Shown: piece by piece, positions 14,935-47,952 of the stretch
Numbering within the stretch: position 1 is the first letter of the stretch
Layout of the letters: every line of letters starts with the position of its first letter
Assembly: GCF_004153545.1 (NCBI RefSeq)
Contig: NZ_SDVA01000001.1
Coordinates: 310,001 to 374,000 of the forward strand
Direction: 5' to 3'
Origin: Serinicoccus sediminis
GTDB lineage: Bacteria; Actinomycetota; Actinomycetes; Actinomycetales; Dermatophilaceae
Length of the DNA stretch: 64,000 nucleotides
Notes under the pieces: generated by a model
What the model was told of the DNA's origin: nothing
Databases searched by the model: none
The model's input: only the letters and a program-made list of their open reading frames with translations
Position numbers and translations under genes: made by a program

Positions 14935-15017
14935 CCACCGGGCGCCGCGCATGGTTGCCCCAGCCCCACCGGACGCCGCGCATGGTTGCCCCCAGCCCCA
15001 CCGGACGCCGCGAATGG
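14935..15017. repeat. Family A tandem repeat, locus 1 (three units, intergenic)
   Basis: Three direct copies of a unit with the core CACCGGRCGCCGCGMATGG, starting (ACCGG) at 14937, 14968 and 15000, so unit lengths are 31 and 32 bp. Read on the minus strand the core is CCATNCGCGGCGYCCGGTG. The array fills most of the gap between the acyl-CoA ligase and the SDR gene. Confidence 0.85.
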
Positions 15018-15036
15018 TGACTGGCAGGATCGGGTC

Positions 15037-15807
15037 ATGAGCCTGGACTACGCACAGATGTTCCGTCTCGACGACCGGCACGCGGTGGTCGTCGGCTGCG
15101 GGGGGATCGGCGCCGAGATCGTCGGCGGTCTCGCCGCGCAGGGTGCCCGGGTCAGCTGCCTCGACAAGGACCCGGACGTCGCGCAGGCGGCGGCCGAGCG
15201 CGCGCCGGGAGGGGCGGCATACCCCGTCGACGTGCTGGACCCGGCTGACCTGGAGCGCTGCGCGACCGGGCTGGGCGACGTCGACGTGCTCGTCCTCACC
15301 CCCGCGATGAACGTCCGGAAGAGGCTGCTGGACTACACGGCCGAGGAGTTCGACCGTGTCGTCGACCTGAACCTGCGCGGCACCTTCCAGGCGGTGCGGG
15401 CGTTCGCGCCGCGGATGGTCGAGCGCGGTCGTGGCTCCGTCGTCGCCCTGACGTCCATCCGCGCGGTGACCGTCGAGCCGGGCCAGGGGGTGTATGCCGC
15501 GACCAAGGCCGGCGTGATGCAGCTGGTCCGCACGTGGGCGGCCGAGCTGGGGCCGGCCGGGGTGCGCATCAACGCGGTCGCTCCGGGCGTCGTGGCCACG
15601 CCGCTGACGCAGCAGATCCGGGACGACGCGGAGTGGGACCGGGCGTATGCCGAGAAGTCCGCGCTGGGGCGGTGGGCGCGGCCCGAGGAGATGGTCGGGG
15701 CGGTGGCCTGGCTGGCCTCGGACGCGGCGAGCTTCGTCACCGGCAGCCAGGTGATGGTGGACGGCGGCTGGACCGCAGTGGACGGCCGGTTCACGCCACC
15801 GGGGTGA
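15037..15807 (+). CDS. Short-chain dehydrogenase/reductase (SDR)
   Basis: 256-residue Rossmann oxidoreductase. The catalytic YxxxK is at Tyr153/Lys157 (VYAATKAG), with the upstream serine in ALTSIRAV; the C-terminal SFVTGSQVMVDGGW is the classical SDR ending. The N-terminal nucleotide loop is unusual: VVVGCGGIGAE in place of TGxxxGIG, one residue short and lacking the threonine. LDKDPD after beta-2 suggests NAD(H) preference. The substrate is unknown. CAGGAT six bases before the ATG may be a leaderless -10. Confidence 0.88.
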   Translation: MSLDYAQMFRLDDRHAVVVGCGGIGAEIVGGLAAQGARVSCLDKDPDVAQAAAERAPGGAAYPVDVLDPADLERCATGLGDVDVLVLTPAMNVRKRLLDYTAEEFDRVVDLNLRGTFQAVRAFAPRMVERGRGSVVALTSIRAVTVEPGQGVYAATKAGVMQLVRTWAAELGPAGVRINAVAPGVVATPLTQQIRDDAEWDRAYAEKSALGRWARPEEMVGAVAWLASDAASFVTGSQVMVDGGWTAVDGRFTPPG

Positions 15808-15933
15808 ACCGGGGCAGACCTCCTGGCGAACCGGGTGGGCACTCTGTGAGGCCGCGGTGAGCCGCGACAGACCTCACCGGGTGGGGTGCGGGGTTGTCGC
15901 TGCCCACGGGGACGTGCGGCAGGATGCACCGTC

Positions 15934-16401
15934 ATGGACGAGACCATCCTGGGCCGCTTCGTCGTCGCCAAGCTCGACGAGATCATCGACGTCGTGGCGG
16001 GCATGGACGACGAGACCGCCAACGCCGTGCCGCCCCTACCGGGCGGCAACTCGGCATACCAGCTGCTGACCCACTGTCTCGGCATGGCGCAGCAGTGGAC
16101 CCGCGAGCACATCGCGGGCGAGCCGACCGGGCGGGACCGCGACGGCGAGTTCCGCGCCAGCGGGGACGTGGAGACACTCGTGCTGCAGGCGCGGGCCTAC
16201 CGCGGCGAGCTGGTCGGCGACCTGGCAGACATCGACTCCGCGCGCCCGCCGGCCGGACGCGCCTGGGGGCGTCAGCCGTTCTGGATCGGCACCGCCGAGG
16301 GCATCCTGCTGCACGTGCTGGAGGAGCTGTGCCAGAACCTCGGCCACCTCGAGATCACCCGCGACCTGGTGGTCTCGGCCAGGCACGCCGACGCGGGCTG
16401 A
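15934..16401 (+). CDS. DinB-superfamily (DUF664-like) protein
   Basis: 155 residues, four-helix DinB/MDMPI-type fold. The putative metal-site histidines lie in SAYQLLTHCLGMAQQW and LLHVLEELCQNLGHLEI. In actinobacteria such proteins are mycothiol- or bacillithiol-dependent transferases/isomerases or orphan DinB proteins; the reaction is unknown here. It is an apparently single gene ending 17 nt before the convergent purU stop. Confidence 0.8.
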   Translation: MDETILGRFVVAKLDEIIDVVAGMDDETANAVPPLPGGNSAYQLLTHCLGMAQQWTREHIAGEPTGRDRDGEFRASGDVETLVLQARAYRGELVGDLADIDSARPPAGRAWGRQPFWIGTAEGILLHVLEELCQNLGHLEITRDLVVSARHADAG

Positions 16402-16418
16402 GGCGGCGGGCGCTCCGG

Positions 16419-17303
16419 TCAGGAGAAGACGATGGTGCGCCCCGAGCGCAGGACGACCCGGTGCTCGGCGTGCCAGCGGATCGCCCGGGAGAAAGCGGCC
16501 GCCTCGACCTCCTGGCCCTGCTGCGCCAGCTGGGCCGGGGTGAGCCGGTGGTCCACCCGGCGGAAGTCCTGCTCGATGATCGGCCCCTCGTCCAGGTCCG
16601 CCGTCACGTAGTGCGCGGTCGCACCGATGACCTTGACGCCGCGGTCGTGCGCCTGGGTGTAGGGCTTCGCGCCCTTGAAGCTGGGGAGCAGCGAGTGGTG
16701 GATGTTGATGATGCGGCCCGAGTAGTCGGCGCACATCGAGGGCGAGAGCACCTGCATGTAGCGGGCGAGCGCGATCGTGTCGACGTCGTGGGTGTCCACG
16801 ATCTCGCGGAGGGCGGCCTCGGCGTCCGCCTTGGTGTCCGGGGTGACCGGCAGGTGGTGGAAGGGGATGTCGTGCCACTCCGCCAGCGCCCGGAAGTCCT
16901 CGTGGTTGGACACGATGGCCGGGATGGTGACCGGCAGCTGCCCGGTGCGGGTGCGGAACAGCAGGTCGTTGAGGCAGTGGCCCATGCGGCTCACCATGAC
17001 GAGCAGCCGGTGCGGCTGCGCCCGGTCGTGCACCTGCCACTGACCGCCGAGACCGTCGGCGACCTCGGCGAGGCCCGCCCGCAGCGTCTCGATCTCGACC
17101 GGCGACCCCTCGCGCGTCGCCTCCATCCGTAGGTGGAACTCGCCGCTGCTCGGGTCGGCGAACTGCTGGCTGTCGGTGATCGTCAGGTCGTGCTCGAGCA
17201 TCGCGCCGGAGACGGCATGGACCACCCCGCGGCGGTCCGGGCAGGACAGGGTGAGGACGACGTCGCGGCCGGTCTCGGCCGGTGCAGAGGTATGCGGTGC
17301 CAC
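16419..17303 (-). CDS. purU: Formyltetrahydrofolate deformylase
   Basis: 294 residues. An N-terminal ACT domain (VVLTLSCPDRRGVVHAVSGAM, QQFADPSSGEFHLRME, seen in parts) is followed by a formyltransferase-fold hydrolase domain with ARYMQVLSP, NIHHSLLPSFKGAKPY (catalytic His) and the aspartate in YVTADLDEGPIIEQDF. It hydrolyses 10-formyl-THF to formate and THF, balancing one-carbon pools. The GTG at 17303 is the natural start. Its upstream region is occupied by three family B repeat units, so its promoter must lie in or next to them. Confidence 0.95.
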   Translation of the reverse strand: MAPHTSAPAETGRDVVLTLSCPDRRGVVHAVSGAMLEHDLTITDSQQFADPSSGEFHLRMEATREGSPVEIETLRAGLAEVADGLGGQWQVHDRAQPHRLLVMVSRMGHCLNDLLFRTRTGQLPVTIPAIVSNHEDFRALAEWHDIPFHHLPVTPDTKADAEAALREIVDTHDVDTIALARYMQVLSPSMCADYSGRIINIHHSLLPSFKGAKPYTQAHDRGVKVIGATAHYVTADLDEGPIIEQDFRRVDHRLTPAQLAQQGQEVEAAAFSRAIRWHAEHRVVLRSGRTIVFS

Positions 17304-17338
17304 GCCGCGCGAGTCTACGTCCTGTCGGCGCGTCTCGG

Positions 17339-17432
17339 GGCGCGTGGCCGCTACGCGTCGGTGCGTGCAGACGGCGCGTCCGGTGCGTGCAGACGGCGCG
17401 TCCGGTGCATCCGGACCACGCGTCCGGTGCGA
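17339..17432. repeat. Family B tandem repeat, locus 2 (three to four 22-bp units)
   Basis: Units begin (GTGC) at 17361, 17383 and 17405, with the next partial at 17427: an exact 22-bp period. On the minus strand the core reads GCACCGGACGCGCCGTC, matching the other family B loci. A degenerate unit (CTACGCGTCG) precedes them. The array is directly upstream of purU. Confidence 0.8.
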
Positions 17433-17443
17433 TCGGGGCCGGG

Positions 17444-17512
<69 letters not shown>

Positions 17513-17516
<4 letters not shown>

Positions 17517-18613
17517 GGGCGGGCGGCGGAGGGGAAGGCGTCGAGGTAGCTGCGCCAGGTGCCGGCCGGCGTGGTGACGGTGCCGGCGGCGAGGACCGCC
17601 CTCACCATGGCGCGGGTCACCACCTCCCCCGACAGGTGCAGCATCCCGTGGAACACCTCCGGGTCCGGTCTCCCGCGGTCGCAGGTCGCGATCCCGAAGA
17701 GGCTGTCACCGTCGAACATCGTGTGGATCGGGTTCACCGCGCGGGCCATGCCGTCGTGACCGCTGGTCGCGAGCCGGGCGCACTGCGCCGGGTCGAGCGC
17801 GGCGTCGGTCGCGACGACCCCGATCGTGGTGGCCAGCGACCGGGGCACGCGGCTGGTGGCGTTGGCCTCCTCGGCGGCGGCCCGGGCCGCCTGCAGCTCC
17901 TCCGCCGTGGGCCGCTGAGGCCACCTGCCGTCAGGCCACTGACCGAGCCCGGTCAGGTCCTCGGGCACCAGGTGCCGGGCCCCCCAGAGCTCCCCGGTGG
18001 CCACGTCGACGGCGGAGCCCACGGCGTTGACGACGACCAGCGCGGCCACCGTCGTGCCGTCGGCCAGCACCCCGCTCGCGGTGCCCACCCCGCCGCGCAA
18101 CCCGCCCACCTGGGTGCCCGTCCCCGCACCGACGTTGCCCAGCGGCACCTCCTGCTCCCCCGTCGAGCCGGCCGCCGCCTCGACCGCCGCACCGAGCGCC
18201 GCCACCCCGAAGCCGGCGTCGGGGAACGCCCCGAAGTCGCCGCCCCTGCCCAGGTCGAAGCAGACCGCGGCCGGGACGATGGGCACCACCTCGCCCGGGC
18301 CACCCATGGGGAAGCCGCGCCCGTCGGCGTACAGCGCGCGCATCACGCCGTCCGCGGCGGCGAGCCCGAAGGCCGAGCCGCCGGAGAGCACGACGGCGTG
18401 AGCGCGCTCGACGAGGTTGCGCGGGTCGAGCAGGTCGGTCTCCCGCGTCCCGGGCGCCCCGCCGCGCACGTCGGCCCCGGCGACGGCGCCGTCGGCCGGG
18501 CAGCGGACCACCGTGGTGCCCGTGAGCCAGCCGTCCCCGACCCGCTGGTGGTGGCCGACCGCGAGGCCGGGCACGTCGAGCAGCGAGTTCGTCGGGCCGG
18601 CGGTGCGCTCCAT
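17513..18613 (-). CDS. P1-family (DmpA/NylC-like) Ntn-hydrolase peptidase
   Basis: 366 residues. The hallmark blocks are all present: GLAVGHHQ, GTTVVRCP, DVRGGAPGTRETDLL, VVLSGGSAFGLAAADGVM, VGAGTGTQVG and VVVNAVGSAVD. Family proenzymes self-cleave before a Ser/Thr that becomes the nucleophile; by alignment with the GSIIVV site of DmpA this is the first Thr of TTIGVVATDAAL, here preceded by Ala. Members are aminopeptidases or amide/oligomer hydrolases. CAGGCT six bases before the ATG may be a leaderless -10. It ends against a G-rich microsatellite. Confidence 0.88.
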
Positions 18614-18625
18614 GGGCTCAGCCTG

Positions 18626-20029
<1,404 letters not shown>

Positions 20030-20075
20030 GGCCGGGTCCTCCGGGTCTGTCGGGTCATCCCGGGCAGGCGGTCGG

Positions 20076-21704: not shown

Positions 21705-21887
21705 GCCGCTCCCCCTCTCTGCGTCGAGTGTGGTCCAGCGTTGCTGACACTAGCCCTGCCCCCCGACAGACCGGCCGCGGACCCGCCGCACGAGCCCACC
21801 CTGACCCCACCCCGACGGGTGGGCCCAGGGTGTGCGGGGCCTCGGGGCCGCGGCCCCCACCCCGGCGGGTGGGACACGCGCCGGGCC
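21705..21887. other. Intergenic gap between pntA and the ABC importer operon
   Basis: 183 nt holding several GC-rich imperfect inverted repeats (for example GGGGCCGCGGCCCC near 21846-21859 and repeated CCACCCCGRCGGGTGGG at about 21808-21825 and 21858-21874). These look like the terminator region of the upstream minus-strand ABC operon plus the pntA promoter. No gene is seen. Confidence 0.5.
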
Positions 21888-22733: not shown

Positions 22734-22751
22734 GGCAGCTCACTCCTCACG

Positions 22752-22836
22752 AGGCCCGGTGCGGTGGAAGGCAACCACAGGCGACGCCCGGTGCGATGAG
22801 AGGCAACCACAGGCGACGCCCGGTGGGAGGGCGGTG
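22752..22836. repeat. Family A tandem repeat, locus 2 (intergenic, inside ABC operon)
   Basis: A partial unit then two full units with the core AACCACAGGCGACGCCCGGTG (AACCAC at 22773 and 22805, 32-bp period). It sits between the two ATPase genes of the importer and stops 4 nt before the stop codon of the upstream ATPase gene. Confidence 0.8.
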
Positions 22837-22839
22837 CGT

Positions 22840-23892
22840 TCATGCGGCGTCCCCCGCCGGGTGGAAGCAGGCGTACCCCGCGGCACCCTCGTCCTGGGTG
22901 TCCCCACCCGGCGCCCGCCCCGGCCCCTCCACGCGGCCCGCGCCCCGCGGCGTCCACCCCGGCTGGGTCGCGCACTCCGCGGTCTCGTGGGCGCACCGGC
23001 TGCGGAAGACGCAGCCACTCGGGAAGCGCCCTGCCGCCGGCACCGTGCCGGGGATGGTCGGCAGCGCGGCCCGCTGCCGCCGGCCCTGCTCCCCGGTGAG
23101 GTCCGAGGCGCCGATGAGGCCCTGGGTGTAGCGGTGGCGCGGGTCGGCGAAGACCTGCTCGACCGGCCCGGCCTCGACGACGCGCCCGCCGTACATCACC
23201 AGCACCCGCTCGCAGACCGTCGCGACGACCGCGAGGTCGTGGGTGATGAAGAGCATCGCGGCGTCCCGTTCCTGCACCCCGCGCACGACGAGGTCCAGCA
23301 CGGTGGCCTGCACGGTGACGTCGAGCGCCGTCGTGGGCTCGTCGCAGATGAGCAGCGCCGGGTCGTTGGCCAGGGCGATGGCGAGCACGACGCGCTGCCG
23401 CTGCCCGCCGGAGAGCTCGTGCGGGTAGGACCGGGCCAGGTGGGCGACGTCCGGCAGCCCGACCTGGTCGAGCAGCTCGACCGCGCGGGCGCGCGCCCCG
23501 GCCCGGTCCCGGGTGCCGTGGATGCGCATCACCTCGGCGACCTGGGCACCGACCCGCATCGTCGGGTTGAGCGCCGTCATCGGCTCCTGGAAGACCATCG
23601 ACACCGCGTCGCCGCGCAGCCGGGCCATCTCCGCCTCGCCCACCTCGAGCAGGTTGCGGGTGGCCGGGGTCCGGCCGGAGAGCCGCACGTCACCGCGCGC
23701 GTGCAGCCCCTCCCCCAGCAGCCCCATGACGGCCAGCGCCGTGAGGGACTTGCCCGAGCCGGACTCCCCGATGAGCCCGACCCGCTCCCCGCGGGCGATC
23801 GAGAAGCTCACGTCGTGCAGCAACGGGGTGTGCCCCGCCCCCACGTCGAGGCCCTCGACGGCCAGCACCGTCCGGCCGGCGGTGTCGCTCAT
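22840..23892 (-). CDS. Peptide-type ABC transporter ATP-binding protein (DppD/OppD-like)
   Basis: 350 residues. Walker A GESGSGKS, Q-loop VFQEPMTALNP, signature LSGGQRQR, Walker B LLICDEPTTALDV and H-loop LFITHDLAVV are intact. The C-terminal oligopeptide-transporter domain carries a Cys-rich element (CVFRSRCAHETAEC, then YACFHPAG), typical of DppD-class ATPases that hold a 4Fe-4S cluster. ATGA overlap with the permease ahead of it shows translational coupling. It pairs with the DppF-like ATPase as the nucleotide-binding heterodimer. Confidence 0.94.
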   Translation of the reverse strand: MSDTAGRTVLAVEGLDVGAGHTPLLHDVSFSIARGERVGLIGESGSGKSLTALAVMGLLGEGLHARGDVRLSGRTPATRNLLEVGEAEMARLRGDAVSMVFQEPMTALNPTMRVGAQVAEVMRIHGTRDRAGARARAVELLDQVGLPDVAHLARSYPHELSGGQRQRVVLAIALANDPALLICDEPTTALDVTVQATVLDLVVRGVQERDAAMLFITHDLAVVATVCERVLVMYGGRVVEAGPVEQVFADPRHRYTQGLIGASDLTGEQGRRQRAALPTIPGTVPAAGRFPSGCVFRSRCAHETAECATQPGWTPRGAGRVEGPGRAPGGDTQDEGAAGYACFHPAGDAA

Positions 23893-25723: not shown

Positions 25724-25729
25724 GCGAGC

Positions 25730-25735: not shown

Positions 25736-25747
25736 GGTCGCCCCTGG

Positions 25748-28590: not shown

Positions 28591-30492
28591 GTGGGCCACT
28601 ACCGCAGCAACGTCCGTGACGCGGAGTTCATGCTCTTCGACGTCCTGGGGCGCCACGAGGTGCTCGGGCGCGCGCCCTACGCGGAGGTCGACGTCGACGT
28701 CGCCCGCGAGGCGCTGCGCGCCGTCGCCGACCTCGCCGAGGGCCCCATCGGCGCGTCCTTCACCGAGTCCGACCGCACCCCGCCCGTGCTCGACCCAGCC
28801 ACCGGCCAGGTGAGCATGCCGGACAGCTTCGTGGCGTCGTACCAGACCTGGGTGGAGAACGAGTGGTGGCGCCTGGAGATCGAGGAGGGCCTCGGCGGCA
28901 CCCCCGCTCCCCCGAGCCTCACCTGGGCGCTCTCCGAGCTCGTGCTCGGGGCGAACCCGGGCGTGAAGATGTTCGCCGCCGGCTACACCTTCTCCAACGT
29001 CCTGTACCGCCTCGGCACCCCCGAGCAGCAGCAGCTGGCCCAGCTCATGGTCGACCACGCGTGGGGGGCGACGATGATGCTCACCGAGCCGGACGCCGGC
29101 TCCGACGTCGGCGCCGGGCGGACCAAGGCGGTCAAGGCGGGCGACGGCAGCTGGCACCTCACCGGGACCAAGCGCTTCATCACCAGCGGCGTCGCGCCGT
29201 TCTACGACAACGTCCTGCACTTCGTGCTGGCCCGGCCCGAGGGCGCCGGCCCCGGCACCAAGGGCCTGTCGCTCTTCGTCGTGCCCGACCGGCACGTCCT
29301 CGACCTCGAGACCGGTGAGCTGGGCGACAAGAACGGCGTCCAGGTCACCGCCATCGAGCACAAGATGGGCCTCAAGGTGTCGACGACCTGCGAGGTCGCG
29401 CTCGGCGAGGACGAGTCGCGTCCGGCCGTCGGCTACCTCCTCGGGGAGACGCACGACGGGATCGCGCAGATGTTCCGCGTCATCGAGTACGCCCGGATGC
29501 TCGTCGGGACCAAGGCGATCGCGACGCTGTCGGCGGGCTACCAGGCGGCGCTGGGGTATGCCCGCGAGCGGGTGCAGGGCGCCGACCTCACCCAGATGGC
29601 CGACAAGACCGCGCCCCGCGTGAGGATCACCGCGCACCCCGACGTGCGCCGCTCGCTGCTGCTGCAGAAGTCCTACGCCGAGGGCCTGCGCGCCCTCATG
29701 CTGTGGACCGCGACCTTCCAGGACCAGGTGCACGCCCGCCAGGACCTCGCCGGGGACGACGCGCTGGACGGCGGCGACGACGTCGCCATGGCGGCGCGGG
29801 TCAACGACCTGCTGCTGCCGCTGGTCAAGGGCTGCGGCTCCGAGCGCGCGTTCACCCTGCTCGGCACCGAGTCGCTGCAGACCCTCGGCGGGTCCGGCTT
29901 CCTGCAGGACTACCCGATCGAGCAGTACCTGCGGGACAGCAAGATCGACAGCCTCTACGAGGGCACCACCGCCATCCAGGGCATGGACTTCTTCTTCCGC
30001 AAGATCCTGCGCGACCGCGGGCAGGCGCTGGGGTATGTCGCCGCGCAGGTCCAGCAGACCGCGTCGGCGCAGGTGGACGACGGCCTCGGCGAGGTGCGCG
30101 GCGCGGTGCTGCGGGCGCTCGGCGAGGTGGACGCGATGGTGCAGTTCATGACCGCGCGGGCCACCGAGTCGCAGCAGGAGCCGAGCGCGGTCTACGCCGT
30201 GGGTCTCGGCACCACCCGGCTGCTGCTGGCCGCCGGGGACCTGCTCGTCGGCTGGCTGCTGCTGCGCCAGGCCGAGGTGGCCCAGCAGCTGCTCGACTCC
30301 GGGGAGACCGGGCCCAGCGGGCTGAGCGCGGCCGACGAGGACGCGCGGGCCTACCTGCAGGGCAAGGTCGTCGCCGCCCGCTTCTTCGCGACCGAGGTGC
30401 TGCCGCGCCTGGGCGCCGACCGGCGCACCGTGACCTCCGCCGACGACGACCACGTCGCTGCCGTCATGGGCCTCCCCGACGCCGCCTTCTGA
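28591..30492 (+). CDS. Acyl-CoA dehydrogenase (long, FadE-type with C-terminal extension)
   Basis: 633 residues, longer than the ~385-residue classical enzyme. The N-terminal extension [20 protein letters not shown] is typical of the large FadE5-like clade. FAD/substrate motifs: [28 protein letters not shown], and the catalytic glutamate in [17 protein letters not shown] helical C-terminal domain follows (residues ~490-633). It oxidises acyl-CoA to enoyl-CoA with ETF as acceptor; the EtfD-like reductase in this window is the likely electron sink. GTG start at 28591 with a perfect AGGAGG five bases upstream. Confidence 0.94.
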
Positions 30493-30497: not shown

Positions 30498-30636
30498 CCT
30501 CCCGCACAGGACGCGCCGTCCGACCACACCGGACGCGCGACCAGGCCCCACCGGACGCGTCGTCCGACCACACCGGACGCGTCGTCCGAGTACACCGGAC
30601 GCGCGACCAGGCCCCACCGGACGTGCGCTCCTGCCG
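30498..30636. repeat. Family B tandem repeat, locus 3 (six 22-bp units)
   Basis: The GGACGCG core starts at 30509, 30531, 30553, 30575, 30597 and 30619: six units at exactly 22 bp, alternating two flank variants (CGTCGTCCGA and CGCGACCAGG). It lies directly downstream of the acyl-CoA dehydrogenase stop and upstream of a decayed GNAT gene. Confidence 0.9.
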
Positions 30637-31119: not shown

Positions 31120-31206
31120 AGGACCGCACGTCTTGTGTGCGCTGACCACGCGTCCTATGCGGCCTGACCACGCGTCCTGTGCGGCCTGACCACGCGTCCT
31201 GTGCAG
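31120..31206. repeat. Family B tandem repeat, locus 4 (three units plus one degenerate)
   Basis: CGCGTCC at 31149, 31171 and 31193 (exact 22-bp period), with a degenerate CACGTCT unit at 31127. It is inverted relative to locus 3; the minus strand reads CGCACAGGACGCGTGGTCAG. It ends at the stop codon of the GtrA gene. Confidence 0.85.
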
Positions 31207-31207
31207 G

Positions 31208-31627
31208 TCAGGGGTAGCGCTTCAGGCGGAAGACGAAGCTGCGCATCATGAGGTACATGAAGACGGCCTCGCAGGCGCCCGCGACGAGGCGGGCGAGGAG
31301 GTACTGGACGCCGAGCCACTCCAGGGTCGTCGACAGGGCCAGGATGAAGAGCACGTAGTTGGCGAGGACGGTGACGACGTAGCGCCCCGTCTGGCGACCG
31401 AGCGGTCCGTGGCTCTGGAAGTTGAGCCACCGGTTGAGCACGAAGGCCAGCCCGAAGGCGACGACGTAGCCCGCGGTGACCGCGACCGGGTAGGGCCAGC
31501 GCAGGACGTCGAAGAGGACCGCCAGCACGGCGAGGTCGATCGCGTAGGTGGTGCCGCTGATGGCGGCGAAGCCGACCGCGGTCTCCGGGACGAGGCGCGC
31601 GACCGGCTCGGGGAGAGCACCGTGCAC
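31208..31627 (-). CDS. GtrA family small membrane protein
   Basis: 139 residues with four membrane helices (TYAIDLAVLAVLFDVL; VAVTAGYVVAFGLAFVLNRWLNF; YVVTVLANYVLFILAL; LLARLVAGACEAVFMYLMMRSFVF, in parts). The FxxNRxxxF element after helix 2 is the GtrA/DPMS signature. Family members are thought to flip or hold polyprenyl-linked sugars for surface glycosylation. GTG start at 31627. No glycosyltransferase is adjacent; the DUF368 transporter (36667) and the 54-64 kb glycosyltransferase cluster use similar carriers but are not linked. Confidence 0.85.
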   Translation of the reverse strand: MHGALPEPVARLVPETAVGFAAISGTTYAIDLAVLAVLFDVLRWPYPVAVTAGYVVAFGLAFVLNRWLNFQSHGPLGRQTGRYVVTVLANYVLFILALSTTLEWLGVQYLLARLVAGACEAVFMYLMMRSFVFRLKRYP

Positions 31628-37647: not shown

Positions 37648-37668
37648 GCCGCGCGGCGGCATACCGAT

Positions 37669-37716: not shown

Positions 37717-37723
37717 GTCCGGC

Positions 37724-39247
37724 TCAGGCCCAGGCGAGCGCCCGGGCAGGGTCCTCCAGGAGGGTGGCCAGGTCGGAGAGGAACCGCGAGCCCAGCTCGC
37801 CGTCGATGAGCCGGTGGTCGAAGCTCACCGCGAGCTGGGTGACCCAGCGCGGTTCGATCCGCTCGTGCTCGCCCCCGCCGACGACCCACGGCATCCGCCG
37901 GACCGCGCCGAAGCAGACGATCGCGGACTCGCCCGGGTTGATGATCGGGGTGCCGGTGTCGACGCCGAAAACCCCGACGTTGGTGATGGTGATGGTGCCG
38001 CCGGACATGTCGGCCGGCTGCGTGCGCCCGGCCTTGGCGGTCGCCACGAGGTCGGTCATCGCCTCGGCGAGCTGCCGCAGGTCCATGAGGTCGGCGTCCT
38101 TGATGTTCGGGACGACCAGCCCGCGCGGGGTCGCGGCGGCGATGCCGAGGTTGACGTAGTTGCGCTGCACGATCTGCTGCGCGTCCTCGTCCCAGACGGC
38201 GTTCATGCCCGGGTTGCGCCGGACCGCGACCGTCATCGCCTTGGCCAGGACGAGGAGCGGGTTGATCCGCAGGTCACGGAACGCCCGGTCCGCCTTGAGC
38301 CGGTCGATGAGCTCCATCGTCCGGGTGACGTCGACGGTGATGAACTCGGTGACGTGCGGCGCGCTGAAGGCCGACCCGACCATGGCCTGGGCGGTCATCT
38401 TGCGCACGCCCTTGACGTCGGTGCGCTCCTCCCGATCGCCGGAGCGGTCGAACACCGGCCGCTGGTATGCCGACCGCCCGGCCTCGCCGGCCGTCTCACC
38501 CGAGCGACCGCCAGCCTCGGGCGCGGGGGAACCATTCGCGACGCCCGGTGGGGTCGAGGGGGAACCATCCGCGACGCCCGGTGGGGTCGAGGGCGAACCA
38601 TCCGCGGCGCCCGGTGGGGTGGTGGGCGCGGCGCCGGCGCCCTCCAGGTGGGCGTCGATGTCGGAGCGGCGCACGATGCCGGTCGGGCCGGCCGCGGCCA
38701 CCGCGTTGATGTCGACGCCGCGGTCCTTGGCGTACTTGCGCACCGGCGGTGAGGCCTTGGCCTTGCGCTGCGGGGCGGCCGCGGTCTCGGCCTCGGCGCC
38801 GGAGGCCCCCCGGCGGCGCTTGCGGCGGGTGGTCGAGCCCTCGATCGCCCCGTAGCCGACGAGCATCGCCTCGCGGGTGCTGCCGGTGCCGCCCTCGCCG
38901 CCCTCGGGCGGGCTGGGCACCAGGTCGTCGGACGCCGCGGCGTCCTCGTCGGTGACGTCCTCGACGTCCGTGCCGGACTGCTCCCCCGCGCCGTCCTCGC
39001 CCTCACCACCGGTGCCGTCGTCGACGACCACGATGGGCGTGCCGACCTCGACCTCGTCGCCCTCGGCGGCCAGGATCTTGGTCACCGTGCCCTCCCACGG
39101 GATGGGCAGCTCGACGAGCGACTTCGCGGTCTCCACCTCGACCACGATGTCGTTGGTCTTCACGGTGTCGCCCTCGGCGACCTTCCACTGGATGATCGTC
39201 GCCTCGACGAGGCCTTCGCCGGGGTCGGGGAGCTTGAACTCGGGCAC
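37724..39247 (-). CDS. bkdC: Branched-chain 2-oxoacid dehydrogenase E2 (dihydrolipoamide acyltransferase)
   Basis: 507 residues. One lipoyl domain (residues 1-77) with the lipoylated Lys42 in VEVETAKSL; an acidic linker; a peripheral subunit-binding domain (PPVRKYAKDRGVDINAV...TGIVRRSDIDAHL, in parts); a repeat-derived Pro/Gly linker; then the catalytic acyltransferase domain with VTEFITVDVT and the active-site VSFDHRLIDGELG. The flexible linker between the E3-binding and catalytic domains is made of three 11-residue repeats (TPPGVADGSPS type) encoded by family A repeat DNA. Operon order E1a-E1b-E2; no E3 gene follows. Confidence 0.94.
   Translation of the reverse strand: MPEFKLPDPGEGLVEATIIQWKVAEGDTVKTNDIVVEVETAKSLVELPIPWEGTVTKILAAEGDEVEVGTPIVVVDDGTGGEGEDGAGEQSGTDVEDVTDEDAAASDDLVPSPPEGGEGGTGSTREAMLVGYGAIEGSTTRRKRRRGASGAEAETAAAPQRKAKASPPVRKYAKDRGVDINAVAAAGPTGIVRRSDIDAHLEGAGAAPTTPPGAADGSPSTPPGVADGSPSTPPGVANGSPAPEAGGRSGETAGEAGRSAYQRPVFDRSGDREERTDVKGVRKMTAQAMVGSAFSAPHVTEFITVDVTRTMELIDRLKADRAFRDLRINPLLVLAKAMTVAVRRNPGMNAVWDEDAQQIVQRNYVNLGIAAATPRGLVVPNIKDADLMDLRQLAEAMTDLVATAKAGRTQPADMSGGTITITNVGVFGVDTGTPIINPGESAIVCFGAVRRMPWVVGGGEHERIEPRWVTQLAVSFDHRLIDGELGSRFLSDLATLLEDPARALAWA
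38525..38623. repeat. Family A tandem repeat, locus 3 (inside bkdC, 33-bp units)
   Basis: AACCAT starts at 38530, 38563 and 38596: three units of exactly 33 bp = 11 codons, with the core AACCATYCGCGRCGCCCGGT. They encode TPPGAADGSPS, TPPGVADGSPS and TPPGVANGSPA in the interdomain linker of E2, keeping the frame. Confidence 0.9.
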
Positions 39248-39301
39248 GAGGGCCGCCTCCTGGGTGGACTGGCTGAGCTGGTCTGGGCGTGAGCGGGTGG
39301 G

Positions 39302-40327: not shown

Positions 40328-40336
40328 CGGTGCCCC

Positions 40337-41518: not shown

Positions 41519-41651
41519 CCAAAAACTCCTTCTGCCGTTGACCTGGCCGGAACGTTACCGCAGACGTCAACCTGACCTCGGGGCACCGGGCACGCCCCGG
41601 CGCCGGGCGGCCCGGGCCCGGGTGGCACGAGCCTCCGGCGATCCCGTGGGC

Positions 41652-42035
41652 TCAGGCCCGCTCGCGCCCGTCCGGGAGCAGCATGCTCACGAACAGCGAG
41701 ACGATCGAGATGATGATCGACCCGAGGACGGCGTCCCAGAAGAAGTCGTCGACGCTGAAGTTGAGACCGAGGACACCGGACAGCCAGGACGTCAGCAGCA
41801 GCATGAGCGCGTTGATGACGACGAGGAAGAGCCCGAGGGTCAGCACGATGAGCGGCAGCGAGAGCAGCTGGACCAGCGGGCGGACGACGGCGTTGACGAG
41901 GCCGAAGACGAGCGCGACACCGATGATGGTGAGCAGCTGCGACACGCCCTGCCCGCCGAACTCGATGCCGGAGACGATGGCGGAGGCGACCCAGAGGGCG
42001 ACACCGTTGGCGACGATCGTGGCGAGGAGCTTCAT
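41652..42035 (-). CDS. Phage-holin-family-IV-like small membrane protein
   Basis: 127 residues, four helices ([75 protein letters not shown]). The [24 protein letters not shown] pattern (in parts) defines the YvlD/mycobacteriophage-holin-like family, widespread as chromosomal housekeeping genes without phage context. Function unknown. Confidence 0.85.
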
Positions 42036-42064
42036 ACCCGCATCGTCCCACGGGAGGGCGTGGC

Positions 42065-42070
42065 TACGCT
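42065..42070 (+). promoter_or_regulatory. -10 element of leaderless hisC-like promoter
   Basis: TACGCT, exactly six bases before the ATG at 42077, the same hexamer and spacing as the etfD-like promoter. Confidence 0.55.
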
Positions 42071-42076
42071 GACCTC

Positions 42077-43168
42077 ATGACCGAGCAGCCCTGCCCCGTC
42101 CGCCTGCGCTCCGCCCTGGCCGGTGTCCCCGCGTACGTCCCGGGGAAGCCGCCGGCGCCGGTCGAGGGGGTCACCGCCTACAAGATCTCCTCCAACGAGA
42201 ACCCGCACCCCCCGCTGCCCTCGGTGCTGGACGCGATCTCGCGGGCCGCGCAGGACGTCAACCGCTACCCGGACATGGGCGTGGTGGCGCTCACCGAGGC
42301 GCTGGCCGCCGACCTCGGCGTGCCGGCCGGGCACGTCGCCACCGGCACCGGCAGCGTCGCCGTCCTCACCCAGCTCGTCGCGATCACCTGCGACCCGGGC
42401 GACGAGGTGGTCTACGCCTGGCGCAGCTTCGAGGCATACCCGATCGTCGTCGCGCTCTCCGGTGCGACCTCGGTGCAGGTGCCGCTGGACCAGGACGCCC
42501 GGCACGACCTGGACGCGATGGCCGACGCCATCACCGAGCGCACCCGGCTGGTGCTCGTCTGCACCCCCAACAACCCGACCGGCCCGGCGGTCCGCGCCGA
42601 CGAGCTCGAGGCCTTCCTCGACCGGGTGCCCACCGACGTGCTCGTCGTCATCGACGAGGCCTACCTCGAGTTCACCACCGAGGAGTCGGTGCCGGACGCG
42701 CTCGCCGTCGCCGAGGCGCGGGCCAACGTCGTGGTGCTGCGCACCTTCTCCAAGGCCTACGGGCTGGCCGGGCTGCGGGTGGGGTATGCCGTGGCGCACC
42801 CCGAGATCGCGACCGCCCTGCGCAAGGCGGCGACGCCGTTCGGGGTGACCGACCTGGCGCAGCAGGCGGCGATCGCGAGCCTCGAGGCGCGGGACGAGCT
42901 GCTGGCGCGGGTCGAGGAGCTGGTGGCCGAGCGTGACCGGGTCGTTGCGGCCCTGCGCGAGCAGGGGTGGGACGTGCCGCAGGCGCAGGGCAACTTCTGC
43001 TGGCTGCCGCTCGCCGACGACGCCGTGCCCTTCGCCCAGGCGGCCCAGGCCCGCGGGCTCATGGTGCGCCCGTTCGCCGGCGACGGGGTCCGGTGCACCA
43101 TCGGCGAGACCGAGGCCAACGACCGGCTGCTGGACGTGGCGCGGGAGTGGCTGTCGACGCGCGCCTGA
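42077..43168 (+). CDS. Histidinol-phosphate / aromatic amino acid aminotransferase
   Basis: 363 residues, fold-type I PLP enzyme. Key blocks: [41 protein letters not shown] and the Schiff-base lysine in [17 protein letters not shown]. An isolated copy away from a his operon and the sequence style ([17 protein letters not shown]) match the actinobacterial 'Pat' aromatic aminotransferase as well as HisC; sequence alone does not separate them. Confidence 0.9.
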
Positions 43169-43191
43169 AGGGGCGGGTCTGAGGACGCTCC

Positions 43192-43590
43192 TCAGGTGTG
43201 CCGGTTGCCGAGCATCCGCCGGGTGACCGTCGCGACGACGTACGTCATCACCCAGCTGGTGACCGCGACGATCACCGTCGGCACCAGCACCCCCTGGCCC
43301 TGCTGGGCCACCGCGAGGCCGAAGAACCACGGCACGGTCATCCCGAGCGACCCGGCCGTGGCCATCATCCAGCCGCGGCCACGGGGACCGGCGATGAGCT
43401 GGGCGGCGACCGCCATGACGGCGAGGTTGCCGTAGGCCATGAGGACCTGGAAGACCTCGCCGGACCCTCGTTGCACGCTCCAGGACTGGCCGGCCACCCA
43501 GGCGAGGATGCCGCCGAGCAGCATGACCGGGATGCCCTTGCGCAGGGAGCCGGTGGCCACGGCGGTGGAGCCGTGGGGGGAGAGAGTCAT
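43192..43590 (-). CDS. Hypothetical membrane protein (four helices)
   Basis: 132 residues with helices at about 20-38, 48-68, 78-95 and 100-121 (IPVMLLGGILAWVAG; VLMAYGNLAVMAVAAQLIAG; MMATAGSLGMTVPWFFGLAV; VLVPTVIVAVTSWVMTYVV). GGAGG is well placed before the ATG. No family recognised; divergent from mutA, so possibly under the same control region. Confidence 0.7.
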   Translation of the reverse strand: MTLSPHGSTAVATGSLRKGIPVMLLGGILAWVAGQSWSVQRGSGEVFQVLMAYGNLAVMAVAAQLIAGPRGRGWMMATAGSLGMTVPWFFGLAVAQQGQGVLVPTVIVAVTSWVMTYVVATVTRRMLGNRHT

Positions 43591-43696
43591 CGGGCCTCCT
43601 TCGGTCCCTCCACAGTAGTCGGCCGCGCGGCGGGCGGGTCGGGCGCGACGCTACGATCCAGGTGACGTGTCCGTCACTCGAGGGAGAGCGCAACCG

Positions 43697-45592
43697 ATGG
43701 AGGAGCCGATCCAGCCGGCCGAGGACGTCGTCGACGCGATGCCCGAGGTGCTCGACCTGGCCTCCTCCTTCCCCGAGGTGACGCGGGAGCAGTGGGAGGA
43801 GCAGGCCGTCCGGGTGCTCAACCGCAGACGCCCCGCCGACCGCCAGCTCTCCGCCGAGCAGTGCCTCGACGCCCTGCGCACCCGCACCGTCGACGGGCTG
43901 ACGATCGAGCCGCTCTACCCCTCCTCGGAGGGTGACCTGGGGCAGCCGGGCGTCGCGCCGTTCCGCCGGGGCACCACGGTCCGGACCGGGGGCGCGTGGG
44001 ACGTGCGGGCCCTGCACGACGACCCGGACACCACCGCCGGCGCGGACGCGGTGCTGGCCGACCTCGAGCGCGGCGCCACCTCGCTGTGGGTCGAGGTCGG
44101 GGCCGGCGCGGTCGCGCCGAGCGACCTCGGTCGGCTCCTCTCGGGCGTCGAGCTGGGCCTCGCGCCCGTCGTCGTCTCCAGCGAGGACGACCAGGGCACC
44201 GCGGCGCGCGCGCTGCTCGCCGTCTCCGTCGAGCGCGGTGTGCCGCTCGCCCCGGGCAGCAACCTCGGCCTCGACCCGGTGGCGCACGCCGCGATCACCG
44301 GGAGGCCGGTCGACGTCGCGGGGGTCGGTGAGCTGGCCGCCTACGTCCGCACCCGGCACCCCGGGGTCCGGGCGGTGACCGTCGACGGATGCGTCTACCA
44401 CGACGCGGGCGGCTCCGACGTCGACGAGCTGGCGCTGAGCGTGGCCGCCGGGATCGCCCACCTGCGCATCCTGGACGCCGCCGGGGTCGGGCCGGCGCAG
44501 GCCGCCGACCAGGTGGACTTCCGCGTCTCGGCGGGCGCCGACCAGTTCCTCACCATCGCCCGGCTCCGGGCGCTGCGGGTGCTGTGGGCCCGGGTGCTCC
44601 AGGAGTGCGGGGTGCCGGAGCGGCAGCGAGGGGCGCGCCAGCACGCGGTGACCTCGTGGCGGATGCTCACCCGGGACGACCCGTGGGTCAACATGCTGCG
44701 CGCGACGACCGCCACCTTCGCCGCGGCGGTCGGGGGCGCCGAGGCCGTCACTGTGCTGCCCTTCGACCACGTGCACGGCTTCCCCGACGCCTTCTCCCGC
44801 CGGGTGGCCCGCAACACGCAGGTGGTGCTGGCCGAGGAGGCCGGGATCGGCCGGGTCACCGACCCCGCCGGGGGGTCGGGTTACGTCGAGTCGCTCACCG
44901 ACGACCTCGCCGCACGGGCCTGGGAGGTGGTGCAGCGGGTCGAGGCCGAGGGCGGTCTCGTGCACGCGCTCGACCACTCGTCGCTCGTGCAGGACCTGCT
45001 CGCCGCGAGCCGGGAGGAGCGGGCCCGGCGGGTCGCGGACCGCACCGCCCCCATCACCGGTGTCAGCAGCTTCCCCGCGGTCGACGAGACCCCCCTGGTG
45101 CGCGTGCCCCGGCCCGCGCGGGCCACCGGCGGGCTGCCGCGCGTCCGGGACGCCGCTGTCTTCGAGGCCCTGCGCGACCGGTCCTCCGCCCACGCCGAGC
45201 GGCACGGCGCACCCCCGCAGGTGCTGCTCGCCGGGATCGGCGCCCGGCGCGACTTCGGCGCCCGGGAGACCTTCACCACCAGCCTCCTCGCGGCCGCCGG
45301 CATCCGGGGGAACCTTGTAGAGGGCACCGACCCTCAGGTCTTCGCGACCGCGCTGCAGGAGCTCGGCCCGCCCGTGGCGATCCTCACCTCCTCCGCCGAC
45401 CGCTACGCCGAGCACGGCCCCGCCGTCGCCCGCGCCCTCCGGGAGGCCGGCGCGCGCCGGGTGCTCCTCGCCGGCTCCGAGCGCGAGCTGGGCAGCGACG
45501 CCGCGCCCCTCGTCGACGGCACGGTGCGGGCCGGCATGGACGTGGTCGCCTTCCTCGACGGCCTGCTCGACACCCTGGAGGTGGCCCGATGA
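43697..45592 (+). CDS. mutA: Methylmalonyl-CoA mutase small (beta) subunit
   Basis: 631 residues. TIM-barrel mutase fold ([51 protein letters not shown], in parts) followed by a degenerate cobalamin-like domain lacking DxHxxG, as expected for the non-catalytic subunit. It pairs with MutB. TACGAT at 43652-43657 and GGGAGAG before the ATG indicate a leadered transcript. An in-frame upstream GTG exists but lacks an SD. It ends in an ATGA overlap with mutB. Confidence 0.94.
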
Positions 45593-47952
45593 CCATCCCC
45601 GACTTCAGCCAGGTCCCGCTCTCCCCTCACCCCGACCGAGCGTCGCGAATGGTTGCTCCCGAGCCCGACCGAGCGTCGCGAATGGTTGCTCCCGACCCGG
45701 CGTCCGACCCGGCGTCCGACGACCGGGCCGGCGGCACGGCATACCCCGAGCTGCCCGAGCCGTGGCACACCCCCGAGCACATCGAGGTCGCCCCGGTCTA
45801 CGGGCAGGACGACCTGGCGCCGCTGGACTTCCTGCGCACCTGGCCGGGGCTGCCGCCGTTCCTGCGCGGGCCTTACCCGACGATGTACGTCAACCAGCCG
45901 TGGACCATCCGGCAGTACGCCGGCTTCTCCACCGCGCAGGAGTCCAACGCGTTCTACCGGCGCAACCTCGCGGCCGGCCAGAAGGGGCTGTCGGTCGCCT
46001 TCGACCTCGCCACCCACCGCGGTTACGACTCCGACCACCCGCGGGTCGAGGGCGACGTGGGCATGGCCGGGGTGGCGATCGACTCGATCCTCGACATGCG
46101 CCAGCTCTTCGACGGCATCCCGCTGGACCAGATGTCCGTCTCGATGACCATGAACGGCGCCGTGCTGCCGGTGCTCGCGCTGTATGTCGTGGCCGCCGAG
46201 GAGCAAGGGGTGGCACCGGAGCAGCTCTCGGGGACGATCCAGAACGACATCCTCAAGGAGTTCATGGTCCGCAACACCTACATCTACCCGCCGGGGCCGT
46301 CGATGCGGATCATCTCCGACATCTTCGCGTTCACCAGCGCGCGGATGCCGCGGTTCAACTCCATCTCGATCTCCGGCTACCACATCCAGGAGGCCGGGGC
46401 CACGGCCGACCTCGAGCTCGCCTACACCCTGGCGGACGGGGTGGAGTACCTCCGCGCCGGCCAGGCCGCCGGGCTCGACGTCGACGCCTTCGCACCGCGG
46501 CTGTCCTTCTTCTGGGGCATCGGGATGAACTTCGCGATGGAGGTCGCCAAGCTGCGCGCGGCCCGCCTGCTCTGGGCGCGGCTCGTGCAGCGCTTCGGCG
46601 CGCAGGACCCGAAGTCGCTGTCGCTGCGCACGCACAGCCAGACCTCCGGCTGGTCGCTCACCGCGCAGGACGTCTACAACAACGTCACCCGCACCTGCAT
46701 CGAGGCGATGGCGGCGACCCAGGGGCATACCCAGTCGCTGCACACCAACGCCCTCGACGAGGCGATCGCGCTGCCGACCGACTTCAGCGCGCGCATCGCC
46801 CGCAACACCCAGCTGTTCCTGCAGCAGGAGTCGGGCACCACCCGGGTCATCGACCCGTGGGGCGGCAGCGCCTACGTCGAGCGGCTCACCCACGACCTGG
46901 CGCGCGCCGCGTGGGCGCACATCGAGGAGGTCGAGGAGGCCGGGGGTATGGCGTCGGCCATCGAGGCGGGCATCCCCAAGATGCGGGTCGAGGAGGCGGC
47001 GGCGCGCACCCAGGCGCGGATCGACGGCGGCACGCAGCCGCTCGTCGGGGTCAACCGGTATCCCCTGGAGCAGCCCGAGAGCCTCGACGTGCTCAAGATC
47101 GACAACGCGCAGGTCCGGCGCGACCAGCTGGCCAAGCTGGAGCGGCTGCGCGCCGAGCGCGACGAGGACGCCTGCCGGGCGGCGCTGGCGACGCTCACCG
47201 AGGGTGCCCGGGCGGCGGTGGAGGACGGCAGCGAGCCGGACCCGGGCGACCTGTCGCAGAACCTCCTCGCCCTGGCCATCGACGCCGCCCGGGCGCACGC
47301 CACCGTCGGGGAGATCTCGGACGCGATGGAGGAGGTCTTCGGGCGCTACACCGCGCAGGTGCGGACCATCAGCGGTGTCTACGCGAAGGAAGCCATGGGA
47401 TCGAGCGGGACGGGGTCGCTGGAGCGGACGCTGGCGCTGGTGGAGGAGTTCGAGGCGGCCGAGGGCCGGCGGCCGCGGATCCTCGTGGCCAAGATGGGCC
47501 AGGACGGGCACGACCGGGGTCAGAAGGTCATCGCCACCGCCTTCGCCGACCTGGGCTTCGACGTCGACGTCGGCCCGCTCTTCCAGACCCCGGCCGAGGC
47601 CGCCCGGCAGGCGGTCGAGGGCGACGTGCACGTCGTCGGGGTGTCGTCGCTGGCCGCGGGTCACCTCTACCTCGTGCCGGCCCTGCGGCGGGAGCTCGAC
47701 GAGCTGGGCCGGGAGGACATGATGATCGTCGTCGGCGGCGTCATCCCCGAGGGCGACATGGCGCAGCTGCACGAGCTGGGCGCCGACGCGATCTACCCCC
47801 CGGGCACCGTGATCCCCGTCGCCGCCGCCGAGCTGGTGCGGCAGCTGGCCGAGCGGCTCGGGCACGCGGGTGGCACGGACGCCGGCGACATCCCGGACGA
47901 CGACACGTCACACGGCGGCGACGACTCTCAGGGTGGTCGCCCGGGTGCCTAG
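45589..47952 (+). CDS. mutB: Methylmalonyl-CoA mutase large (alpha) subunit
   Basis: 787 residues, adenosylcobalamin-dependent. It converts (R)-methylmalonyl-CoA to succinyl-CoA. TIM barrel with [20 protein letters not shown] (in parts), [16 protein letters not shown] and [13 protein letters not shown]; the C-terminal B12 domain has D639-x-H641-xx-G644 in [10 protein letters not shown]. The first ~40 residues include two tandem 11-mers ([12 protein letters not shown]) that are not part of the fold and are encoded by family A repeat DNA. The stop is overlapped by meaB. Confidence 0.97.
45631..45696. repeat. Family A tandem repeat, locus 4 (inside mutB, 33-bp units)
   Basis: CCCGACCGAG begins at 45631 and 45664: two units of exactly 33 bp encoding [11 protein letters not shown] and [11 protein letters not shown]. 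On the minus strand the unit reads AACCATTCGCGACGCTCGGT, the same core as the loci at 14.9, 22.8 and 38.5 kb but in the opposite coding orientation to that in bkdC. Confidence 0.9.

Follow-up and report, generated by a model that had tools for sequence, protein, structure and literature searches.

A dispersed tandem-array element of one Serinicoccus clade with different unit lengths in coding and non-coding DNA

The window analyzed here, a 64,000-nucleotide stretch of the Serinicoccus sediminis genome, contains two families of short tandem repeats. Family A has the core AACCAYNNGCGRCGYYCGGT, and each of its units consists of a conserved core (about GSCAACCANNNNCGRCGCYCGGTSGG) and a freer spacer, together mostly 32 bp long, or about three DNA turns. 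At up to three mismatches, the window holds ten copies of this core against a mean of 0.16 in shuffles. Family B has a 22-bp unit with the core CACCGGACGCG. The arrays and the two array-bearing genes are as follows.

10691..10767, + strand, family B array, with the stop codon (TAG) of the gene before it lying in the first unit
14937..15019, - strand, family A array of three units with steps of 31 and 32 bp, 6 bp past the stop of a + strand ORF ending at 14930
17375..17429, - strand, family B array with 22-bp steps
22750..22825 (TRF bounds), + strand, family A array of a worn edge copy and two units (22773 and 22805, spanning 22773-22824; step 32 bp), 15 bp beyond the stop of the - strand ORF 22840-23892
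30505..30625, + strand, family B array with 22-bp steps, 12 bp past the stop at 30492
31127..31203, - strand, family B array with 22-bp steps, 4 bp past the stop of the - strand gene 31208-31627
37724..39247, - strand, bkdC, with lipoyl, E3-binding and acyltransferase domains (Pfam PF00364, PF02817, PF00198)
38530..38615, + strand, family A array in bkdC, three units of 33 bp in the linker between the E3-binding and catalytic domains
45589..47952, + strand, mutB, methylmalonyl-CoA mutase (PF01642, PF02310), whose start codon overlaps the stop of the preceding gene
45635..45687, - strand, family A array in mutB, two units of 33 bp close to the N terminus of the protein

All four family A arrays had been recognized in an initial annotation of the window, with bounds that shift slightly here and a first copy at 22750..22825 that proves to be worn; the core first stated there fits less well than the one above, having two mismatches in each of the copies at 22773 and 22805, one in each mutB copy and one at 15000. 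The peptide TPPGVADGSPS in the BkdC linker and the 11-residue unit near the MutB N terminus were both read correctly, but the two genes do not read opposite strands of the repeat, as had been stated. With bkdC on the - strand and its array on the +, and mutB on the + strand and its array on the -, both mRNAs read the same repeat strand, in different frames.

Unit number at these sites differs between species, as the orthologue comparison proposed with that annotation reveals. The array at 14937..15019 has two to four units in G139, G168, G167, G104 and G047, while G119 is empty and G150 has one unit with three mismatches. The edge unit of the array at 22750..22825 is common to G168, G139, G167 and G104, and the same four genomes carry two to three units in bkdC and two units at 33 bp in mutB. 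At up to three mismatches, no bkdC units were found in G150, G119 or G158; at four mismatches, G150 has two and G119 one, and G150 also has one mutB unit.

Across the S. sediminis genome, the core matches 156 times versus 9 for a reversed pattern and forms 95 tandem pairs versus none for that control. Tandem pairs occur in 9 of 31 Serinicoccus genomes, the reversed-pattern control giving one match in each of two genomes, and the nine carriers form one clade with support of 99/99 on a bkdC tree that takes in 28 of the 31 (missing are G156, which had no match, G155 and G162). A sample of 140 genomes from the family's other genera gave 0-3 matches per genome, compared with 17-325 in the five carriers sampled, and exact core matches in a contig database comprise 16 single copies outside Serinicoccus versus 31 Serinicoccus stretches. 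Among the titles listed from an open-licence literature library, none concerned such repeats in Serinicoccus, and related papers there offered precedents at most. These sequence comparisons support family A as a dispersed tandem-array element with a single origin in a nine-species Serinicoccus clade. The earlier idea of a spreading element agrees with this clade restriction and with scarcity in coding DNA, which holds 7 of the 39 arrays of the S. sediminis genome although about 89% of reference stretches are coding.

Unit lengths were compared in a step census covering 82 sites, to which 158 arrays of six genomes were assigned once one-unit arrays had been dropped. The relatives' arrays are those among the matches listed, and for G139, G167 and G168 some of them come from tiles that match the first-stated core exactly, so the relatives' site lists are not random samples; array L050, in a script-called CDS, and L125, partly in a CDS, were counted as non-coding. 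Among the matches listed, steps are exclusively 32 bp at 62 of 72 non-coding sites and exclusively 33 bp at none of them, whereas 7 of 10 coding sites are all-33 (Fisher p 3e-8), or 5 of 8 when HisIE and DUF3097, whose starts are uncertain, are left out. Counted by step, again among the matches listed, a length of 32 bp accounts for 357 of 375 non-coding steps and one of 33 bp for 31 of 35 coding steps. The split between 33 bp in genes and 32 bp outside them, first seen in the window, appears in this six-genome census as well, with exceptions on both sides. Between genes, the 31-32 bp of the window gives way to a dominant 32 bp in the census, and the non-coding array L104 of the S. sediminis genome has steps of 33 and 33 bp. 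Exactly 33 bp inside genes holds within the window, but elsewhere the G104 nadE array has steps of 32 and 32 bp, an array in an MFS gene 33 and 32, and one in the G104 ThiF-rhodanese gene 33, 33 and 32 in gene direction. The frame is kept in coding DNA, as had been proposed, and the coding rule is that the net inserted length is a multiple of three, not 33 bp as such. Selection on the reading frame would explain 33 versus 32 bp, because units can be gained or lost freely within a gene only if each is 33 bp long. Placement in disordered segments was also proposed earlier; 8 of the 10 coding sites avoid Pfam domain matches and fall between domains or at an N terminus, and the other two, in the MFS transporter and NadE, fall inside a match. 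An array of family B at 21 bp in a G168 gene was considered as a parallel to the 32/33 rule and set aside because each of its units departs from the consensus core at two positions.

Orthologues of three further genes were compared. For nadE, 13 genomes were searched and the nine carriers compared: an in-frame extension of three 32-bp units is absent from seven other carriers, and the stretch measures 360 bp in G104 and 363 bp in G167 versus 279-285 bp in the seven others, all multiples of three. New sites may be seeded by short arrays arriving as a block, as the three 32-bp units in nadE suggest, because passing through one or two such units would shift the reading frame. Block insertion is read from this one gene. 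The left flank of the G167 nadE copy is similar to that of G104, a resemblance that may reflect transfer between species, and arrays with their flanks might alternatively be brought from another species by recombination, with local unit turnover afterwards. The HisIE N terminus, compared in 19 of the 31 genomes, carries 0-4 units depending on the species. In a model with a mean pLDDT of 54, block means are low over its first 50 residues (32-47) and secondary structure is absent there, which is a weak test of disorder. The peptide is missing from the HisIE of ten non-carrier genomes, as expected of inserted DNA rather than ordinary protein evolution. G119 blurs this picture somewhat, as it has two copies of the peptide DRTPRMSG and at four mismatches their DNA is not recognized as core. 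The ThiF-rhodanese gene was compared in 13 genomes; its linker and that of the E2 protein vary in length anyway. The AlphaFold model of BkdC, run with four sequences (mean pLDDT 33.8), was too poor to use.

Core and spacer were then compared at the 35 sites held by two or more genomes, comprising 111 arrays. At shared sites, spacers track the site, while variable core positions track the species in G104 and G047, the most distinct pair of genomes. The within-genome similarity excess is 0.120 for the core, against a permutation mean of 0.004 (sd 0.008; 0/2000), and 0.008 for the spacer, a small genome signal (21/2000). Between G000 and G047, orthology does not raise core similarity (0.337, versus 0.378 for non-orthologous pairs), whereas it does raise spacer similarity (0.615 versus 0.506). 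The species effect on the core is carried by G104 and G047; within G000, G139, G168 and G167, cores at orthologous sites (0.65-0.72) resemble each other more closely than do cores at different sites within a genome (0.545-0.601), and pairs with G104 or G047 keep a residual core orthology signal of 0.058 (0/1000). At two sites, edge units are common to several species and inner units differ. Spacers are 0.826 alike within one array compared with 0.524 between sites of one genome, and a CRISPR reading was ruled out, as spacers within an array are alike rather than unique. Cores that track species with spacers that track sites are a new pattern, suggesting a trans-acting reader or copying limited to the core. 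The initial annotation had noticed neither this species-by-species core shift nor the placement mainly 3' of genes.

Recognition of the core in trans would account for dispersed cores that change in concert and spacers that do not. The reader may be a fast-evolving protein, either a DNA-binding factor on phased iteron-like sites or a core-copying enzyme, and this is a less secure step than the others; no candidate for either was identified. Taken as a whole, a clade-specific dispersed array element that is seeded in blocks, filtered by reading frame and putatively read through its core in trans is the explanation we consider probable. More tentatively, and at less than even confidence, the arrays are predicted to be targets of an undescribed, fast-evolving, sequence-specific protein of this one clade, reading a variable stretch in an otherwise fixed core, so that arrays across a genome would shift in concert as their spacers and locations pass down separately at each site.

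Purely selfish DNA, rarely copied, homogenized through recombination among its dispersed arrays and lacking any host reader, would reduce frame and position to what selection tolerates. The scarcity and frame filtering in coding DNA, the likely block insertion in nadE, the edge units common across species with differing inner units at two sites, and the small genome signal in spacers all suit such an element. Recombination between arrays should nevertheless move spacers along with cores, which is at odds with a spacer effect of 0.008 beside a core effect of 0.120, and non-coding steps stay at 32 bp in 357 of 375 cases despite differing spacers, so that we judge this account rather unlikely.

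Position offers some grounds for an RNA-level 3' element, such as a terminator, a Rho loading site or an mRNA stabilizer. Positions were taken from 67 sites outside called CDS with both neighbors called (five others lack a called neighbor), including the DUF3097 site, counted as coding elsewhere, and excluding the L125 site, counted as non-coding. Arrays often lie within 30 bp of a stop codon, with a median distance of 12.5 bp to the nearest stop, and among the matches listed 26 of 67 sites are in convergent gaps versus 58 of 273 background gaps (p 0.004, in a test that treats orthologous background gaps of several genomes as independent). Opposed array pairs run - then + in 19 of 19 pairs at the loci examined, and 7 of the 10 coding sites are antisense to the core and 3 sense, which puts the C-rich strand in the mRNA at the antisense sites. 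Against this, the orientation bias is weak (36/54, p 0.02) and in tandem gaps alone amounts to 16 of 28 (p 0.57), a sense:antisense ratio of 12:16; divergent gaps hold 13 of the 67 sites; and a genus-wide listing contains at least one opposed pair in + then - order. Folding of 25 arrays of the S. sediminis genome on both strands, compared with dinucleotide shuffles, gave no mean signal (z range -5.1 to 2.3), and an Rfam scan of the window returned four tRNAs only, with no match on its arrays. An RNA-level role is accordingly improbable. Strand segregation in G104, in which all listed matches are on the + strand, was dropped because BLAST shows arrays on both strands in the same stretch, and it is taken as a listing artefact.

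The same habitat recalls REP elements and BIMEs, described in PMC3733652 as palindromes of 20-40 bp, often dimers, of which GTAG types are associated with RAYT transposases. Its account has GTAG and CGTC REPs in high copy 3' of genes, in convergent and tandem gaps, in opposed pairs, and sometimes inside ORFs or providing a stop codon. Compared with that description, family A is likewise short, of high copy, 3' of genes and in convergent gaps (26/67 versus 58/273), with some arrays in ORFs and some in opposed pairs, but its units run head to tail at 32 bp, mean fold z over the 25 arrays is -0.18 and -0.03 (single arrays reach -5.1), and Y1_Tnp (PF01797) is found in 0 of the 31 genomes, the control being positive in 5 of 14. 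The core has only a partial dyad, ACC N13 GGT, seen by eye, and CGTC is seen inside the antisense core of some copies, with no clear stem that it could tag. A REP/RAYT-type miniature transposon family of this actinobacterium is thus largely refuted and very improbable. Ordinary protein linker evolution with chance low-complexity DNA in a GC-rich genome could draw on the variable E2 and ThiF-rhodanese linkers and on G119 HisIE, with similar peptide copies and no recognizable core, but is refuted for the arrays as a whole by one core DNA that recurs between genes and in unrelated genes, in differing frames and on both strands, far above controls.

Mycobacterial MIRU are dispersed tandem direct repeats between genes, near stop codons and variable in copy number, with longer units; compared by description, family A resembles them in its dispersed tandem direct repeats near stop codons, and we know of no species-specific core in MIRU. 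Iterons are phased, protein-binding direct repeats at one origin, near integral helical phase. Family A shares with them direct repeats at a fixed, near-helical spacing (357 of 375 steps at 32 bp), a conserved core and a freer spacer, but it occupies dozens of sites and has no known binding protein. Rickettsia palindromic elements, as portrayed in PMC10969869, are selfish-looking, palindromic, about 150 bp long and inserted in frame in unrelated genes, adding peptide. Family A is likewise in frame in unrelated genes (ten coding sites, with unit-free nadE and HisIE alleles), but differs from the elements portrayed there in its 32/33-bp head-to-tail arrays, its 11-residue units and a unit length that differs between coding and non-coding DNA. 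The TAACTGA direct repeats of marine Beggiatoaceae form many small intergenic sets, with few in ORFs and then mostly at the protein periphery (PMC4679880), and the same source cites the general rule that coding DNA is the likelier place for units of 3n length. Unlike family A, the unit described there is 7 bp and lies mostly toward start codons, and no 32/33 split or concerted core change is known to us there.

A repeat present in both coding and non-coding DNA provides a natural test of selection on a spreading element, with 32 bp outside genes and 33 bp, or three 32s, within them, and nadE exists in both array-bearing and array-free forms. The places at which BkdC, MutB, HisIE and other proteins carry 11-residue units are ones where insertion is tolerated. 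The split between core and spacer is a testable sign of a trans-acting reader or of an unusual copying mechanism, and, if the predicted protein exists, the arrays across a genome would together form a network of phased binding sites, some of them translated as 11-residue units.

All four places in the window claimed for the repeat were confirmed, and the core read there by the initial annotation has 10 window copies at no more than 3 mismatches, compared to 0.16 expected from shuffles. The arrays of this family (family A) in the window are as follows.

14937-15019, family A array between genes
22750-22825, family A array between genes
38530-38615, family A array inside bkdC, with the core antisense to the gene
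45635-45687, family A array inside mutB, with the core antisense to the gene

The improved core is AACCAYNNGCGRCGYYCGGT, and the conserved part of the unit overruns its edges, to about GSCAACCANNNNCGRCGCYCGGTSGG as read from base counts. Because the core is opposite to the gene in both bkdC and mutB, the two mRNAs read the same repeat strand in different frames, and the earlier reading from opposite strands is wrong for these two genes.

The spread of family A is clade-specific. In the 3.55 Mb genome of the window (G000), 74 + 82 core matches were found, compared to 4 + 5 for a control pattern with the core reversed, and 95 tandem pairs, compared to 0 for the control. A scan of named genome contigs placed the exact core in 31 Serinicoccus stretches, many of them multi-copy, and in 16 stretches of unrelated bacteria, single copy in each. 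Within a family-level sample of 149 genomes, G000 counted in, five Serinicoccus genomes have 17 to 325 core matches, four more of the genus have 0 or 1, and other genera have 0 to 3 per genome (n = 140). Tandem pairs occur in nine of the 31 genus genomes (carriers), from 7 in G119 to 234 in G104, and the reversed control gave a single match in each of two of the 31 genomes scanned. In a tree built from the bkdC sequences of 28 of these 31 genomes, the nine carriers form one clade with 99/99 support, corresponding to one change compared to 7.9 in shuffles.

Step lengths were tabulated for 158 arrays of at least two units from six genomes, yielding 82 sites after grouping by flanking DNA; the 39 arrays of G000 account for the tandem pairs listed in that genome, and the other genomes were sampled partially. 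With gene calls from a codon model that had been trained on the retrieved DNA, and the coding status of ten sites assigned by inspection, the 72 non-coding sites contain steps of 32 bp (357), 33 bp (13) and 31 bp (5), and the ten coding sites contain steps of 33 bp (31) and 32 bp (4). The coding sites are in BkdC, MutB, a second E2 acyltransferase, an AAA ATPase, HisIE, a DUF3097 protein and an MFS transporter, and, in G104, an ABC transporter, a ThiF-rhodanese protein and NadE. The proposal of 31-32 bp between genes and exactly 33 bp inside them holds as a strong bias, as 7/10 coding and 0/72 non-coding sites are all-33 (Fisher p 3e-8; 5/8 coding without HisIE and DUF3097, whose start codons are uncertain) and 62/72 non-coding sites are all-32, but fails as a strict rule, given the four coding steps of 32 bp. 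The count of unit lengths suggested as a check bears out this bias in the arrays tabulated from the six genomes, with 33 bp in 31/35 coding steps and 32 bp in 357/375 non-coding steps. One non-coding array in G000 has steps of 33 and 33 bp, and its G139 counterpart 33 and 31 bp. Only 7/39 arrays in G000 are coding, compared to ~89% coding in reference stretches.

The governing rule is net frame, and it is the NadE exception to 33 bp that explains it. The G104 protein has CN-hydrolase and NAD-synthase domains, and its gene carries three units at 32-bp steps within the CN-hydrolase match. The reading frame differs from unit to unit, and no stop codon arises. The array is absent in seven carriers (G168, G150, G139, G119, G000, G158 and G047), in which this stretch is 279-285 bp long compared to 360 bp in G104 and 363 bp in G167, all multiples of three. 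As one or two 32-bp units would cause a frameshift, the array probably arrived as a block. Transfer of a filled allele is possible, since the left flank of the G167 copy resembles G104, and the same may apply to HisIE in G139. At NadE (loci L269 in G167 and L268 in G104) and HisIE (L155 in G139 and L156 in G104), the array-bearing G167 and G139 alleles are closer to G104 around the array than their nearer relatives are, which suggests recombination between species that carries arrays together with their flanks.

Units are gained and lost between species, with a frame filter inside genes. HisIE has four units in G000, G167 and G104, three in G139, one in G168 and none in G150, G158 or ten non-carriers (19 of the 31 genomes compared), and the difference between G104 and G139 is exactly one 11-residue unit. 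In G119 there are two copies of a similar peptide, but the underlying DNA fails to score as core, and G047 has three copies at 32-bp steps around the start codon. Unit numbers in the AAA ATPase gene are 2, 2, 3 and 5. The G104 copy of this gene (L247) may be frameshifted or misassembled upstream of the array, as the reading frame of that stretch apparently differs from that of the orthologues.

Outside genes, family A is placed toward 3' ends. The 67 sites that lie outside called CDS and have a called gene on either side fall in 26 convergent, 28 tandem and 13 divergent gaps, compared to 58, 147 and 68 among background gaps of at least 40 bp from the window and relatives' stretches, a convergent excess with p 0.004 when orthologous gaps are treated as independent. 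The median distance from array to the stop codon facing the gap is 12.5 bp (at most 30 bp in 40/54), and 36/54 arrays run antisense to the closest gene end (p 0.02; 16/28 in tandem gaps alone). Opposed arrays within one gap follow the order - then + in 19/19 pairs in the stretches examined, some of them orthologous, and at least one + then - pair is in the genus listing (G139, C22:111080 and 111138). Such facing arrays (loci L126, L228, L218, L239, L243, L260 and L214) have centres of 8-9 bp in 5/19 pairs and of 19-21 bp in 7/19, two classes that differ by about one helical turn.

Inside genes, the insertion places are likely disordered, judged by position: 8/10 coding arrays fall where Pfam matches no domain, and those of the MFS transporter and NadE are inside a domain match. 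Structure modelling adds weak evidence, as the first 50 residues of HisIE have block means of 32-47 in pLDDT and form no secondary structure in a model with a mean of 54.

A second family (family B), whose 22-bp unit has the core CACCGGACGCG, is present as four arrays in the window.

10691-10767, family B array at gene end
17375-17429, family B array at gene end
30505-30625, family B array at gene end
31127-31203, family B array at gene end

Its steps are 22 bp in 81/81 cases at the loci examined (18-26 bp allowed), in arrays not fully inside CDS. Tandem pairs occur in 8/31 genus genomes, with 128 in G000 and none in G104 or G047. By eye, CACCGG-CG in mRNA sense is common to both families. The TAG stop of the gene upstream of the 10691 array (10705-10707) comes from its first unit, and this stop offset of -17 recurs at L128 in G139, L119 in G000 and L131 in G168. 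A TCGGGG hexamer-like array (17425-17523) directly adjoins the array at 17375-17429, and a 28-bp unit repeated in tandem roughly three times (53367-53458) lies between called genes 52815-53321 and 53515-54240.

Comparison of 35 sites common to at least two species showed that the family A core has changed in step in two species, G104 and G047, with evidence against a general species effect. Core positions 6-9 at shared sites are mostly TCTG or TGTG in G104, mostly C[AG]NG in G047, where position 12 is A, and mixed in the other four genomes, TTCG being commonest. Over all pairs, core likeness is 0.622 for different sites within one genome compared to 0.578 for orthologous sites between genomes, and spacer likeness 0.524 compared to 0.672. 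Between G000 and G047, orthologous and non-orthologous likeness is 0.337 and 0.378 for cores and 0.615 and 0.506 for spacers. When genome labels were shuffled within sites, the core genome effect (0.120) was reached in 0/2000 shuffles and the spacer effect (0.008) in 21/2000. G104 and G047 thus account for this core effect: among G000, G139, G168 and G167, likeness is higher for orthologous cores (0.65-0.72) than for cores from separate sites within a genome (0.545-0.601). A residual core orthology signal of 0.058 (0/1000) persists even in pairs that include G104 or G047. An edge unit is common to four species at one site and three at another, while inner units differ. Recombination of whole arrays fits the change in step worse, because spacers would have been carried along with the cores.

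Family A resembles REPs in its gene-end habitat and occasional ORF insertion (PMC3733652), RPEs in its in-frame insertion (PMC10969869) and Beggiatoaceae repeats in its intergenic direct-repeat form (PMC4679880), the last paper also citing a general 3n rule for coding repeats. In contrast, the available portions of these three sources describe neither a 32/33 split nor a species-wide core change. MIRU repeats and iterons are further systems with which family A was compared. Folding gave no support on average for a hairpin in the arrays, and a profile search of the 31 genus genomes gave none for a Y1 transposase. A mechanism may be proposed in which new sites would be seeded by arrays arriving as blocks, units would then turn over locally, and a trans factor would read or copy the core.
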